A DNA stretch of 44,385 nt from Sphingomonadaceae bacterium (lineage in GTDB: Bacteria; Pseudomonadota; Alphaproteobacteria; Sphingomonadales; Sphingomonadaceae), in the NCBI GenBank assembly GCA_021300355.1, contig JAJTEF010000011.1, positions 1-44,385 on the forward strand, written 5' to 3'. Position 1 is the stretch's first letter, and each line of letters opens with the position of its first letter. The translations under genes and the position numbers were made by a program. Below, one piece after another: positions 30,087 through 42,243 of this stretch. The notes under the pieces were generated by a model. That model had not been told where the DNA came from. It was given only the letters and a program-made list of their open reading frames with translations, and searched no databases.

Positions 30087-30679
30087 GTCGGCAAAAGACC
30101 TCTCACCCGCAGATAGTCAAGAATGGGAAGCAAGGGCATCCCAATTATCGTAAATTGGCTACCGCTCACGCTAGCAAATAATTGTGCGCCTTCGGCTTCA
30201 ATACGATAGCAGCCCACACAATGCCGTATTTCATCCCAATATGTATCGACATATTGGTCGATAAATGTGGCGCTGAGCGTGCGCATCGTCATCTGCGCGC
30301 TGTCGACAATTCGCCAGACAGGCTTGCCTTGTTCGCATATAACCGCTGCACTGATCAGTCTGTGCGACGCACCCGACAATGCCGCCAGATGTGCGCGTGC
30401 TTCGTCTTTATCTTCGGGCTTATCAAAGATTTTTCCGTCGGCACTCAGCAATATTTGGTCACAGCCAAGCACCATTGCTGTCGGTTGTTTGCGTGATATT
30501 TTGAGCGCCTTGGCTTCGGCAAGTGCGTCCGCAATATCGCGCGGTTTAGCGCCCGATTGCATGAGCGCCATTTTGATGCTGTCTTCATCAACCAGCGCAG
30601 GGCACGGTTCAACATAAACACCCGCGGCGCGCAACATCGCGATTCGCCCTGCGCTTTGTGACGCGAGGATGAGGGTCAT
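30083..30679 (-). CDS. Maf family nucleotide pyrophosphatase
   Basis: A 198-aa Maf-like protein. It starts LILASQSAGRIAMLRAAGV, a variant of the usual LASxSPRR motif, followed by VDEDSIK and GCDQIL. Maf proteins hydrolyse non-canonical or methylated nucleoside triphosphates to monophosphates and were first linked to septum control. The altered N-terminal motif (AGR in place of PRR) is typical of the origin-linked alphaproteobacterial type as far as I recall, so the preferred nucleotide is uncertain. It overlaps aroE and ppsR by 4 bases each. Confidence 0.9.
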   Translation of the reverse strand: MTLILASQSAGRIAMLRAAGVYVEPCPALVDEDSIKMALMQSGAKPRDIADALAEAKALKISRKQPTAMVLGCDQILLSADGKIFDKPEDKDEARAHLAALSGASHRLISAAVICEQGKPVWRIVDSAQMTMRTLSATFIDQYVDTYWDEIRHCVGCYRIEAEGAQLFASVSGSQFTIIGMPLLPILDYLRVRGLLPT

Positions 30680-31509
30680 GTTTTTGCCGCCTCGGCCAGT
30701 TCGCGTTCATTGAAGAGATTGATGATCGCAGCAGCGCTTTCCTCAATCGAACGCCGCGTTACATCCAGCACAGGCCAGCCATTATCGGCAAACATACGCC
30801 GCGCATGCGCGACTTCTGCCTTCACCTTTTCCTCATCGACATAATCGGTGTCGGGCGACTGATTCAACGAAAGCAATCGATTGCGCCGCACCTGAACCAG
30901 CCGTTCGGCGCTGGTGACAAGCCCAATTACCATCGGGTGTTTCAACTGAAACAATATCGGTGGCGGCGGCGCTTCGGGGACGATGGGAATATTGGCGGTC
31001 TTATATCCGCGGTTGGCCAAATAAATGCTCGTTGGCGTTTTGGATGTCCGCGAGACACCGGCAAGGACGATATCCGCCTCTTCCCAATTTTGCGCATTGA
31101 TGCCGTCGTCATGGGCAATGGTGAACTGGATAGCATCGACGCGGGCAAAATAGGCCGCGTCCATCGCGTGCTGTCGGCCCGGGCGGGCCTTTGCCTCTTG
31201 CCCAAGCATATTCGACATAGCGTCACTCACCGCATCAAGCGCGGCAACCGCTGGCAAACCCATCGCACGGCACCGTGTTTCCAGCTTGCGCCGCGTATCA
31301 CGATTAACCAATGTGAACAGAACAAGGCCGGGGTTCGTCGCGACGTCGAGCAATATACGGTCGAGGTGGCTTTCCGAACGGACCATCGGCCAAAAATGCT
31401 TTACGACATTTTCGGCGCCATCAAACTGCGCCAATGCAGCCTTCGCAATGTTTTCAAGCGTCTCGCCTGTGGAATCCGAAAGCAAATGAAGATGAAAACG
31501 TTGGCTCAT
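30676..31509 (-). CDS. ppsR: Pyruvate, water dikinase regulatory protein (DUF299)
   Basis: A 277-aa bifunctional kinase/pyrophosphorylase of the PPSR/PDRP family that switches phosphoenolpyruvate synthase or pyruvate phosphate dikinase by threonine phosphorylation. The opening LHLLSDSTGETLENI and the P-loop-like GVSRTSKTPTSIYLA (near residues 148-162) are diagnostic. This is the first gene to the left of the origin; the equivalent gene is next to the Caulobacter origin. Its start codon abuts the oriC region. The target enzyme is not in the window. Confidence 0.95.
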   Translation of the reverse strand: MSQRFHLHLLSDSTGETLENIAKAALAQFDGAENVVKHFWPMVRSESHLDRILLDVATNPGLVLFTLVNRDTRRKLETRCRAMGLPAVAALDAVSDAMSNMLGQEAKARPGRQHAMDAAYFARVDAIQFTIAHDDGINAQNWEEADIVLAGVSRTSKTPTSIYLANRGYKTANIPIVPEAPPPPILFQLKHPMVIGLVTSAERLVQVRRNRLLSLNQSPDTDYVDEEKVKAEVAHARRMFADNGWPVLDVTRRSIEESAAAIINLFNERELAEAAKT

Positions 31510-31532
31510 GACTCACAGTCTTGTTGGTAGGC

Positions 31533-31541
31533 TGAGGATAA
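31533..31541 (-). promoter_or_regulatory. Weak DnaA box
   Basis: The minus strand reads TTATCCTCA, one mismatch from the consensus TTATCCACA. It lies 72 bases to the left of the main cluster inside the proposed origin. Confidence 0.5.
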
Positions 31542-31612
31542 ATCAAGGGACAAGTTTTCACCCACCCTATCTTCCCCACTATCGCCGAATAACCTCTCGA
31601 TTCGGGCACAGC

Positions 31613-31621
31613 CTATCCACA
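31613..31621 (+). promoter_or_regulatory. DnaA box 1
   Basis: CTATCCACA, one base from TTATCCACA. It is part of a direct repeat GCCTATCCACAG whose second copy starts 20 bases later, about two helical turns, so both boxes face the same side of the DNA. Confidence 0.75.
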
Positions 31622-31632
31622 GGGGCAACTGC

Positions 31633-31641
31633 CTATCCACA
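31633..31641 (+). promoter_or_regulatory. DnaA box 2
   Basis: CTATCCACA, an exact copy of box 1 with the same flanks. It is followed 3 bases later by the oppositely oriented box 3. Confidence 0.75.
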
Positions 31642-31644
31642 GCC

Positions 31645-31653
31645 TGTGAATAA
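31645..31653 (-). promoter_or_regulatory. DnaA box 3
   Basis: The minus strand reads TTATTCACA, which fits the relaxed consensus TTATNCACA exactly. It points the opposite way to boxes 1 and 2. Confidence 0.75.
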
Positions 31654-31811
31654 TGGGGATGGAATGTGCGACTCCATTGGATTGCGTTTGCCCTTGGACG
31701 TCAAGATGTTGGCAATATCCGCAAAAGCTTTTAAGGCCTGCGATATCAACAGCACATCATCTTTCATCATCCTTTATATAAATATATATTTTGATTGGAT
31801 CTCTGCCGCTT

Positions 31812-32843
31812 ATGTCAGCGCAAGCCTCGAAAAAACTGCTTAACGTCCTAAAGGGCAACCAAGAGGCAGTACCGCCTATTTGGCTCATGCGACAGGCAGG
31901 ACGTTATCTTCCAGAATATCGGGCCCTTCGCGCTGAAAAGGGCGGATTTCTGGCGCTTGCTTATGACAGCGATGCCGCGACCGAAATAACGCTGCAGCCC
32001 ATCAAGCGTTTTGGTTTTGATGGCGCCATATTATTCTCCGACATTCTCGTCATTCCGCACGCCATGGGTCAGGATCTGTGGTTCGAAACAGGCGAAGGTC
32101 CAAGGCTTGCGCCGCGCTTGGCGGAATCGCGACTTGAAGACTTTGTGCCAGCGCCTGAACGGCTCAATCCTGTTATCGACACCGTGCGTAAAGTATCGGC
32201 GGCACTGCCAGCGGAAACAACCTTCCTGGGTTTCGCTGGAAGCCCGTGGACGGTCGCTACGTACATGGTGCATGGTCAGGGTAGCAAAGACCAAGCAGAG
32301 GCCCGCAGAATGGCCCACGCAGAGCCGGAGCGTTTTGCTGATCTTATCGAAGCGATCATTTCGGCAACGGTCGATTATCTCGCCAATCAAATTGATGCCG
32401 GTGTTGATGCGGTTCAGTTGTTTGACAGCTGGGCAGGGTCTTTGTCGCCAGCACAGTTCCAAAAATGGGTCATCGCGCCAAATGCCGAAATCGTGCGTCG
32501 CTTAAAAGCCCGCAATCCAAATGCCGTTATCATTGGTTTCCCCAAAGGCGCGGGCGGTAAGCTTGCTGCGTATGCCGAGGGCACGGGCGTTGATGCATTG
32601 GGATTGGATGAAACGGTTGATCCGCATTGGGCAAACCGAGAGCTGCCAAAGGGTCTGCCGGTGCAGGGCAATCTTGATCCGCTCGCGCTGATTGCGGGTG
32701 GTCAGGTCCTGAAAGAGGCCGCGGACAATATTCTATCGGCATTTGCCGACCGCCCCCATATCTTCAATCTCGGCCATGGTATTTTGCCGGACACGCCGAT
32801 TGAAAATGTCGAAATGCTTCTTAAACTGGTCCGCAAGGGTTAA
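31812..32843 (+). CDS. hemE: Uroporphyrinogen decarboxylase HemE
   Basis: A 343-aa enzyme converting uroporphyrinogen III to coproporphyrinogen III in heme synthesis. WLMRQAGRYLPEYR at about residues 23-36 is the family signature; FSDILVIPHAMG and GNLDPLAL also fit. ATG 31812 is preferred over the in-frame 31791, which lies in the AT-rich origin. First gene right of the origin; hemJ follows after 18 bases. Confidence 0.98.
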   Translation: MSAQASKKLLNVLKGNQEAVPPIWLMRQAGRYLPEYRALRAEKGGFLALAYDSDAATEITLQPIKRFGFDGAILFSDILVIPHAMGQDLWFETGEGPRLAPRLAESRLEDFVPAPERLNPVIDTVRKVSAALPAETTFLGFAGSPWTVATYMVHGQGSKDQAEARRMAHAEPERFADLIEAIISATVDYLANQIDAGVDAVQLFDSWAGSLSPAQFQKWVIAPNAEIVRRLKARNPNAVIIGFPKGAGGKLAAYAEGTGVDALGLDETVDPHWANRELPKGLPVQGNLDPLALIAGGQVLKEAADNILSAFADRPHIFNLGHGILPDTPIENVEMLLKLVRKG

Positions 32844-37941: not shown

Positions 37942-37957
37942 TGTTTCACGTGAAACA
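37942..37957. promoter_or_regulatory. parS centromere site 1
   Basis: A perfect 16-bp palindrome, TGTTTCACGTGAAACA, the consensus ParB-binding parS. It lies in the 71-base gap between mnmE and mnmG, about 6.2 kb from the proposed origin and 3.4 kb before parB. Confidence 0.96.
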
Positions 37958-39879: not shown

Positions 39880-40544
39880 CCGAAGCTGAAGCGAAAGCGT
39901 GGCTGGCGACATCCTTGGGTGTTTCACGTGAAACAATGGAATCGCTCGACGCGTTCGTTGTGTTCCTGAAACGCGAGTCGGCCAGCCAGAACCTCATTGC
40001 GGCATCGACCATAGAAGATATTTGGTCGCGCCATATCGTCGACAGTGCGCAGTTGCTGACCTTCGTGGATCAGAGCGGACCTGAAACAAAATGGTTGGAC
40101 CTGGGGTCAGGCGCGGGCTTCCCCGGGTTGATTATTGCGTTGCTCACGGATTTTGAAGTGACGCTTGTGGAGTCGCGCACACGGCGGATTGAATATTTGC
40201 AGCGTGCGGTGGAAATGCTCGATATCGGTGGCCGCGTCACAGTCATGGGCATGCCGCTGGAGCGCATGAAAACCGCCCCATTTTCGGTCATCAGTGCGCG
40301 CGCCTTTGCGCCCTTGCCCAAATTATTTGAACTGGCGGCCCGTTTCTCTCATAATAATACTTTGTGGCTGCTGCCAAAGGGGCGTAACGCAGCAATAGAG
40401 TGGGATGACGTCAAAGCAGCGTGGGACGGCGCGTTTAGCGTTAAACAAAGCATAACCGATGCAGATGCCGGCATTCTGGTCGGTACATTGGCCGGTAAGC
40501 GTACAGGTGGCGGTAACGCTGGGGCAAAGGGACAAAAACCATGA
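39876..40544 (+). CDS. rsmG: 16S rRNA (guanine-527-N7) methyltransferase RsmG (GidB)
   Basis: A 222-aa SAM-dependent methyltransferase modifying G527 of 16S rRNA; loss gives low-level streptomycin resistance in other bacteria. SAM-binding motif is [12 protein letters not shown]. Residues 15-20, GVSRET, are encoded by an embedded perfect parS site, so the protein sequence here is shaped by a DNA element. It overlaps mnmG and parA by 4 bases each. Confidence 0.97.
39920..39935. promoter_or_regulatory. parS centromere site 2, inside rsmG
   Basis: A second perfect TGTTTCACGTGAAACA. It lies within the rsmG coding sequence (codons 15-20) about 600 bases before parA and 8.2 kb from the proposed origin. 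Confidence 0.96.
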
Positions 40545-41320
40545 TCCGAATTGCAGTGGCAAATCAGAAGGGCGGGGTTGGCAAGACCACCACGGCTATC
40601 AACTTGGCGACTGCATTGGCGGCAAGCGGTTGGCGGTGCGTGCTGGTCGATCTGGATCCCCAAGGAAATGCGTCCACCGGCCTAGGCCTGAAACAAGCGC
40701 AGCGCGTCCACAGCAGCTATGATCTTTTGCTGGGGGATGCGTCGTTGAAGGATGCGGCTATCCCGACCTTAATCCCCAATCTCGACATGGTCCCTGCGAC
40801 GGTTGATCTGTCCGGCGCCGAAATTGAACTGGTCGAATATGAGGACCGCACTGGGCGGTTAAAGGCGGCTTTCGACAAATCCGATGCCAATTGGGATATC
40901 TGCATCATTGATTGCCCGCCCTCGCTGGGGCTCATCACGATCAATGCGCTCGTGGCGGTGGACTCACTGCTTGTACCGCTACAGTGCGAATTTTTTGCGT
41001 TGGAAGGTTTAAGTCAGCTATTACAGACTGTTGAGCGTATTCAGGGCCGGTTTAACCCGGCGCTGACGATCATGGGTGTTGCGTTGACCATGTACGACAA
41101 ACGCAACAAGCTGACCGAACAAGTTGCGGACGACGTGCGCAGTTGCTTGGGCGATCTGGTGTTCCAAACCGTCATCCCGCGCAACGTACGTTTGTCAGAG
41201 GCGCCAAGTCATGGACTGCCCGCGTTGGTGTACGACCATCGCTGTTCGGGTTCAGAGGCGTATATGAAATTGGCAAGAGAATTGATTGGCCGTCTACCGG
41301 CCCGGGAGCTCGCAGCGTGA
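40541..41320 (+). CDS. parA: Chromosome partitioning ATPase ParA
   Basis: A 259-aa deviant Walker ATPase. The signature KGGVGKTTT is at residues 10-18, then DLDPQGNAST and the Walker B region CIIDCPPSLGL. It binds DNA non-specifically and draws ParB-parS complexes to the cell pole. It overlaps rsmG by ATGA and parB by GTGA. Confidence 0.98.
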   Translation: MIRIAVANQKGGVGKTTTAINLATALAASGWRCVLVDLDPQGNASTGLGLKQAQRVHSSYDLLLGDASLKDAAIPTLIPNLDMVPATVDLSGAEIELVEYEDRTGRLKAAFDKSDANWDICIIDCPPSLGLITINALVAVDSLLVPLQCEFFALEGLSQLLQTVERIQGRFNPALTIMGVALTMYDKRNKLTEQVADDVRSCLGDLVFQTVIPRNVRLSEAPSHGLPALVYDHRCSGSEAYMKLARELIGRLPARELAA

Positions 41321-42243
41321 CGAATGATAATTCATCTGAAAAATCCCCATTGAAGAAAAAAATGGGATTGGGCCGCGGCCTTGACGCCTTGCTTGGGGAA
41401 GCATTGCGCGGCGACCCCGCTTCTGTGCGCGCTTCCGGAAATGTCGATTCCCGCAGCGTTGGCGTCATGACAATTGCGGTTGCCGAGATACGCCCAAATC
41501 CCGATCAGCCGCGCCGCCATTTTTCCGACGATAAACTGAACGAGTTGGCGGCCAGCATTGCAAAGCATGGCGTAATTCAACCAATCGTCGTGCGTCCGTT
41601 CAACGATGGCTATCAAATCGTCGCCGGCGAACGCCGTTGGCGCGCAGCGCAGCGGGTTCAGCTGCACGATTTGCCTGCCATCGTGCGCAATTTTGACGAT
41701 GCCGAAACGCTTGAAATCGCATTGTTGGAAAATATCCAGCGTCAGGATCTCAATCCGATAGAAGAAGCCGAGGCGTATAAAAAGCTGACCGATGTGTTCG
41801 GGCATAGTGCGGCGGAGTTGGCGGAGCTGGTGCACAAGTCGCGCAGCCATGTTGCGAATATGATGCGCTTGCTCGATTTGCCTTTGCCGTTGCGCGATCT
41901 GGTCATCGAAGAAAAATTGACCATGGGGCATGCACGCGCTTTGTTGGGCAGCGAGAATGCTGTGCCATTGGCTATGCTGGTCATTAAAAATGGCCTGTCG
42001 GTCCGCGCCACGGAAGCGCTTGTGCAAAAAGAACGCGCCCCGACCGCTAAAAAAGGCAAAAGCACGGGCCCAAGTGACAATGCGGATATTCGGGCAGTCG
42101 AAACCCATTTGGGCGACCTGCTGGGCTTGACCGTGCGGATTGTTCAGAAAAATGCCACAGGCGCAGGAGCGGTGACATTTGAATATGGCAGTCTCGACCA
42201 GCTCGACATGCTGTGTCAGCGCCTGACAGGTGAAAAATTCTAA
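41317..42243 (+). CDS. parB: Chromosome partitioning protein ParB
   Basis: A 308-aa CTPase/DNA-binding protein that loads at parS. GRGLDALLGE near the N-terminus is the ParA-contact region; IRPNPDQPRRHF and GERRWRAAQR are the CTP-binding motifs; KSRSHVANMMRLLDLP is the helix-turn-helix; the end is the dimerisation domain. The frame is open from 41143 within parA, but GTG 41317, overlapping the parA stop, is the coherent start. Confidence 0.97.
   Translation: MTNDNSSEKSPLKKKMGLGRGLDALLGEALRGDPASVRASGNVDSRSVGVMTIAVAEIRPNPDQPRRHFSDDKLNELAASIAKHGVIQPIVVRPFNDGYQIVAGERRWRAAQRVQLHDLPAIVRNFDDAETLEIALLENIQRQDLNPIEEAEAYKKLTDVFGHSAAELAELVHKSRSHVANMMRLLDLPLPLRDLVIEEKLTMGHARALLGSENAVPLAMLVIKNGLSVRATEALVQKERAPTAKKGKSTGPSDNADIRAVETHLGDLLGLTVRIVQKNATGAGAVTFEYGSLDQLDMLCQRLTGEKF

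Follow-up and report, generated by a model that had tools for sequence, protein, structure and literature searches.

The 302-bp spacer between the divergent genes ppsR and hemE is very probably (about 96%, judging from its sequence and its counterparts in relatives) the chromosomal origin of replication (oriC) of this sphingomonad. It occupies positions 31510-31811 of the window, by which we mean the whole 44,385-bp stretch of DNA that was analysed. An earlier note had proposed an origin function for this spacer, and the proposal is supported by a cluster of DnaA boxes, the conservation of the locus, and a switch of GC skew in relatives; the comparison with relatives strongly supports the location. 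An origin beside hemE is an expected, ordinary feature, and the segment at which DnaA would open the duplex is slightly unusual. Fixing the origin of an uncultured sphingomonad would permit replication rates to be estimated from read coverage and its genome to be numbered correctly.

The window corresponds to the entire contig C63 of a 2.18-Mb assembly (75 contigs, 99.7% complete). To the left of the spacer lies a minus-strand run of dnaQ, coaE, aroE, maf, and ppsR, and to the right a plus-strand run that begins with hemE, hemJ, and rho and later includes mnmE, mnmG, rsmG, a parA-like gene, and parB (NCBIfam names; the matches of maf, hemJ, and parA were below the curated cut-offs). The divergent gene order that the earlier note had likened to the Caulobacter origin was recovered, with ppsR (-) and hemE (+) both above their NCBIfam cut-offs (Table 1). 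The dnaA gene of this genome sits on a different contig. The GC content of the spacer is 0.46, as compared with 0.56 for the window, indicating a higher A+T content that includes a 20-bp A/T stretch. This run, which had been described as lying beside hemE, was located at 31773-31792 and consists entirely of A and T; the second-longest pure A/T run in the window is 16 bp.

Table 1. Coordinates of the features in and around the ppsR-hemE spacer (positions in the window).
Feature	Position	Strand	Basis or remark
ppsR (COG1806/DUF299, PEP synthase regulator), left boundary	30676..31509	-	NCBIfam PRK05339.1, 326 bits (cut-off 225)
Predicted oriC, 302-bp ppsR-hemE spacer	31510..31811	.	boxes, A/T run, skew switch in relatives, conserved spacer
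DnaA box, ppsR side (TTATCCTCA), within conserved GGATAAATCAAGGGA	31533..31541	-	one mismatch
DnaA box 1 (CTATCCACA)	31613..31621	+	one mismatch
DnaA box 2 (CTATCCACA), 20 bp from box 1 and in direct repeat with it	31633..31641	+	one mismatch
DnaA box 3 (TTATTCACA), opposed to box 2	31645..31653	-	one mismatch; conserved pair around CCACAGnCTGTG
GANTC site adjoining the box pair	31670..31674	.	others at 31510 and 31599
IHF-like core TCAAnnnnTTG, then GTTGGCAA (31708-31715)	31701..31711	+	conserved pattern
Weak DnaA box (ATATCAACA)	31743..31751	+	two mismatches; closer match in many relatives, e.g. nTATCCACA
CATCATCTTTCATCATCC triplet patch, candidate DnaA-trio-like segment	31755..31772	+	CATCATC conservation, BUS rule
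20-bp pure A/T run, candidate duplex unwinding element	31773..31792	.	longest in the window
hemE, right boundary, ATG at 31812	31812..32843	+	TIGR01464, 401.6 bits (cut-off 303)
parS-like 14-mer GTTTCACGTGAAAC	37943..37956	.	motif match
Second parS-like 14-mer	39921..39934	.	motif match
parA-like gene	40541-41320	+	ParA-type matches shown all below curated cut-offs
parB (ORF 41143-42243, true start likely further in)	within 40541..42243	+	parB_part TIGR00180, 195.9 bits (cut-off 58)

DnaA boxes were counted as sites with at most one mismatch to TTATCCACA in the whole 44,385-bp window. Six such sites were found, four of them inside the spacer, and none of these four matches TTATCCACA exactly. 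The reported clustering of three boxes within 41 bases is evident at 31613-31653, and boxes 1 and 2, both CTATCCACA on the plus strand, are direct repeats 20 bases apart, as had been stated; they share CCTATCCACAG, which begins at 31612 and 31632. The fourth box, described earlier as weaker, is present on the ppsR side, but it is not weaker by mismatches, as all four boxes have one. In the displayed rows of close relatives, this box reads TTATCCCCA. Dinucleotide shuffling of the spacer reached four boxes in 0 of 2000 trials (mean 0.11), and when a 302-bp frame was slid along the window, 862 of its 882 placements contained no box, 14 contained one, 3 contained three, and 3 contained four. Single boxes with at most one mismatch are common genome-wide (338, versus 203 for a reversed control), and thus the signal resides in the cluster, not in the individual box. 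A direct pair of the form TATCCACA-N1..30-TATCCACA is found at a single place in the 2.18-Mb genome, as is an opposed pair of the form TATCCACA-N0..20-TGTGNATA, and in both cases that place is the spacer.

We examined 109 relative loci (L004-L112), some of which represent the same record from two collections, and found divergent, adjacent ppsR and hemE in 103, with spacers of 265-421 bp. Two of the six non-conforming loci are cut by contig ends (L030, L035); in the other four (L066, L070, L086, L105), hemE has no detected ppsR beside it, and these might represent origin rearrangements. The arrangement was also observed in broader samples: in 20 of 20 regions fetched from the same order (out of 24 genomes), in 59 of 60 regions from the same family (76 genomes with ppsR among 79 searched), and in 34 of 40 regions from the class (104 genomes with ppsR among 153 searched). 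In the remaining six class regions, either hemE was missing from the 1.9-kb piece (four) or hemE was present and the ppsR end was unaligned (two). The gaps in the 34 class regions reach 1,602 bp, two of them exceeding 1 kb.

Motifs were then counted on the plus strand of 102 distinct spacers, including that of the window, against the expectation from shuffles. Boxes with at most one mismatch averaged 2.44 per spacer, versus 0.07 in shuffles, and at least one was present in 97 spacers, five having none. A loose opposed box pair appeared in 64 spacers (0.9 expected) and a strict pair in 35. The ppsR-side element GGATAAA[TC][CT]A was found in 36 of the 102 (0.5 expected). Beside the ppsR-side box, GGATAAATCAAGGG at 31536-31549 is well kept in the displayed rows of the genus and recognisable further out. 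In 92 of the 102 spacers, the 20-mer richest in A/T had its centre no more than 35 bp from the start of hemE.

The skew analysis was performed on relatives, since the genome itself is divided into 75 contigs. The cumulative skew minimum of the window lies at 32063, 250 bp inside hemE, and the local skew partly reflects a gene-strand effect, in that four of five plus-strand ORFs checked to the left of the origin have positive skew; two single-contig chromosomes of the same genus, G005 and G031, were therefore sampled at 20 stretches each (20 kb in G005). The earlier note had staked its proposal on a skew minimum at this locus, and the switch does occur at ppsR/hemE in both relatives. In G005 (2,533,041 bp; ppsR at 343,208-344,026, hemE start at about 344,378), 20 of 20 samples fit an origin at ppsR/hemE, with nine left-half samples all negative and eleven right-half samples all positive, one of the latter including 2,501 N. 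The reverse switch lies between 1.565 and 1.670 Mb, opposite ppsR/hemE. The cumulative skew reached its minimum at the very end of the left flanking sample (339,964) and, in the right flanking sample, 79 bases from the start (344,179); given the position of the hemE start, this 4.2-kb bracket ends inside the spacer. In G031 (3,458,643 bp; ppsR at 2,692,824-2,693,636), the skew is weak and 17 of 20 samples fit, the exceptions being at 180 kb, 2.16 Mb, and 2.33 Mb. The values on the two sides of the locus are -0.029 and +0.028, and the switch is bracketed to 2,691,952-2,693,700 (1.7 kb).

Origins linked to dnaA are common in bacteria, and the spacer, which separates divergent genes, must hold promoters. 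The origin could accordingly be imagined beside dnaA, with the spacer merely a DnaA-regulated divergent promoter region. We consider this highly improbable: dnaA in G005 is located at 1,222,285, and skew is positive in the nearest sample on either side of it (1.170-1.190 and 1.295-1.315 Mb), which leaves no skew switch between the two. Moreover, four boxes in opposed and direct arrangement together with an A/T run exceed, in our judgement, what a DnaA-regulated promoter needs. The origin might alternatively lie near the spacer, for example toward parAB and the parS-like sites, with the spacer acting as an accessory DnaA-binding site. The brackets of 4.2 and 1.7 kb, which enclose more than the spacer itself, and the window minimum inside hemE would allow this. 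The spacer, however, holds the only box cluster of the window as well as its longest A/T run, and the parS-like sites lie on the hemE side, where in G005 all 2-kb bins across the 20 kb that follow 344,100 already have positive skew. A neighbouring origin thus appears very unlikely, and the ppsR-hemE spacer itself is the preferred location.

Several other readings of the spacer were evaluated. A coding function (ORF 31508-31843) was rejected, since among 18 distinct spacers of 302 bp the frame stays open in only 5, and an RNA gene was likewise rejected, with Rfam at gathering thresholds yielding nothing in the window apart from a tRNA at 72-143. A scan of 31300-32000 for sigma-70-like promoters found none, which says little, because only 0.8 would be expected by chance and promoters must exist.

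Between the box cluster and hemE, the pattern TCAAnnnnTTG at 31701 resembles the IHF consensus and is a putative IHF site. TCAA....TT[AG] was present in 59 of the 102 spacers (4.2 expected from shuffles), as was GTTGGCA (59 of 102; 3.1 expected). By eye, spacers of the Sphingomonas/Sphingopyxis type retain GTTGGCAA after the IHF-like core, and those of the Erythrobacter/Novosphingobium type do not. GANTC, a CcrM-type site, was found in all 102 spacers, versus 76 expected from shuffles. The full CtrA site TTAA-N7-TTAA has no occurrence in the 44,385-bp window, and was detected in 1 of the 102 sphingomonad spacers (0.3 expected); the loose pattern TTAA-N6..8-TTA has its sole match in the window at 41009. 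Control of the origin by CtrA is unsupported, given that the window is without a full site.

The hemE-side part of the spacer (weak box, CATCATC triplets, and A/T run) appears to resemble the published DnaA-box/DnaA-trio unwinding system. The weak box beside the A/T run is an addition to the features described earlier. In the window, ATATCAACA is followed by GCA, CATCATCTTTCATCATCC, and then the A/T run; CATCATCTTT and CATCATCCTT (31755-31774) form a 10-bp near-direct repeat adjoining that run. Many class, order, and family spacers show by eye a similar series before hemE, namely TCCCC[G/A], a DnaA-like box, GGGAT or GGGCC, triplets starting with C (CTA, CAA, CAT), and A/T-rich DNA. Counted in the last 200 bp and without a shuffle control, TCCCC[GA] was present in 20 of 32 spacers from the class sample outside the family, in 10 of 20 from the same order, and in 35 of 59 from the same family. 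A C-run just before a box was discarded as a hemE-side mark, as it shows no strand preference, occurring on the plus strand in 29 of 102 spacers and on the minus strand in 26.

According to the published description, the basal unwinding system (BUS) of Bacillus subtilis and other bacteria consists of a DnaA box, a spacer, and DnaA-trios in this order, with 3'-GAT-5' as the commonest triplet (PMC8287927). The hemE-side part shares the succession of DnaA box, short spacer, triplets, and A/T-rich DNA, and differs in having CAT/ATC in place of the commonest published triplet. If the usual strand convention applies, 3'-GAT-5' corresponds to CTA on the box strand. CTAC does not occur in the last 170 bp of the window's spacer, so this commonest, though not required, triplet is absent there. 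We re-coded the BUS rule from the publication (a box with at most two mismatches, a spacer of 0-16, and at least three 3'-NAN-5' triplets, under the same strand convention). The window passes it once, at 31743, with two mismatches in the box, a spacer of 11, and four 3'-NAN-5' triplets. The rule is loose: 43 of the 102 spacers pass on the plus strand, versus 7.2 in shuffles, and in the class sample the enrichment is only mild (11 of 34, versus 5.6 in shuffles).

CATCATC occurs twice in the triplet segment of this genus and is present in 29 of 29 distinct genus-like spacers and in 41 of the 102 (4.4 expected from shuffles). It is not exclusive to the family, being found in 4 of 34 class spacers, one from the same family (L154) and three from outside (L165, L170, L183). 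The CTA-type mark CTAC was observed in 21 of 32 spacers from the class sample outside the family and in 14 of 20 from the same order. It was present in 26 of 62 spacers from the same family and in 1 of 29 that are genus-like, and CTA-type triplets are hence rarer in Sphingomonadaceae (26/62) than in the class and order samples (35/52). A module of box, triplets, and A/T-rich DNA that recurs beside hemE in Alphaproteobacteria and varies within one family would make the DnaA-trio model testable there.

The ATPase domain of DnaA (PF00308) is strongly diverged in much of the family (G000 C10:72907-73389 (L002), L209, L210, L212), including the neighbourhood of Walker A, which reads AATGQGKTH in the window's genome versus GGVGLGKTH in most other aligned proteins. 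The PF00308 match of the window's genome scored 189 bits. Within the family, 47 of 78 full matches were below 190 bits (range 166-234; one further match was truncated), and outside it, 134 of the 147 matches in the class sample scored at least 200 bits, three more genomes having no match. We aligned 17 DnaA proteins, leaving out four of 21 for which the filter found no frame. From the ATPase domain on, the window's DnaA shares 50-54% identity with the 13 proteins that come from outside the family; G201, itself among the 13, shares 66-92% identity with the remaining 12. At 33 alignment columns, all four family members lack the residue present in at least 12 of the 13 outside proteins.

CTAC in the last 170 bp was found in 20 of 27 family spacers with DnaA at 190 bits or more versus 6 of 35 below (Fisher p 8e-6), with both the CTAC measure and the 190-bit cut picked after the sequences had been seen. 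Shared ancestry suffices to explain this association. A quickly built hemE tree with 74 rows (80 less six whose hemE piece was short; cut at 200 bits) leaves only two pairs with contrasting DnaA class on supported branches, too few for the sign test to become significant. We therefore do not claim that the triplet change tracks DnaA divergence, as the association fails correction for ancestry. It is a doubtful possibility that the unwinding code and its reader changed together in Sphingomonadaceae, from CTA-type DnaA-trios to CAT/CAAC-type with the loss of many class-fixed residues from the DnaA ATPase domain; if so, the family's DnaA would read a different single-stranded motif. Among the titles and abstract openings listed, a scope with most subscription papers outside it, none mentioned for Sphingomonadaceae an altered DnaA-trio or divergence of DnaA.

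Initiation at the ppsR-hemE spacer would probably proceed as follows. DnaA would bind the opposed and direct boxes at 31613-31653, aided by an IHF-type bend at about 31701-31711, and would extend via the weak box onto the single-stranded CATCATC patch and melt the A/T run beside hemE. By homology, the helicase would then load and a pair of forks set out, one in each direction. The origin region would subsequently be moved by ParB bound to the two parS-like sites. The 14-mers at 37943 and 39921 are termed parS-like because they match the parS motif; they lie 6-8 kb from the spacer on the hemE side, and parAB together with these sites spans 6-10 kb from it.

Location beside hemE has precedent in the family. 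In PMC4741004, the oriC of Sphingopyxis TFA is located near hemE, and an oriC near hemE is predicted for most Sphingomonadaceae in DoriC. Sphingopyxis granuli TFA and the DoriC entries share with the window a position beside hemE and intergenic DnaA boxes with a putative DUE (PMC4741004); they belong to other genera, and the likeness is one of position and described elements. Among the matches listed for marker-frequency work, the sole paper naming Sphingomonas was this TFA paper, the available text of which is without that term.

The Caulobacter crescentus origin (Cori) differs in that CtrA binds TTAA-N7-TTAA there, a motif with zero occurrences in the window. Both contain DnaA boxes, and Cori has an IHF site where the window has only an IHF-like pattern. 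In Caulobacter, parAB lies near the origin. As printed in PMC4285127, the high-affinity Caulobacter boxes are TGATCCACA, unlike those of the window, and the IHF sequence of Cori differs from the pattern found here. The placement itself is shared: PMC1914354 puts the origins of both Caulobacter and Rickettsia between hemE and COG1806, and its Table 1 gives 404 bp between COG1806 (ppsR) and hemE in Cori, compared with 302 bp in this sphingomonad.
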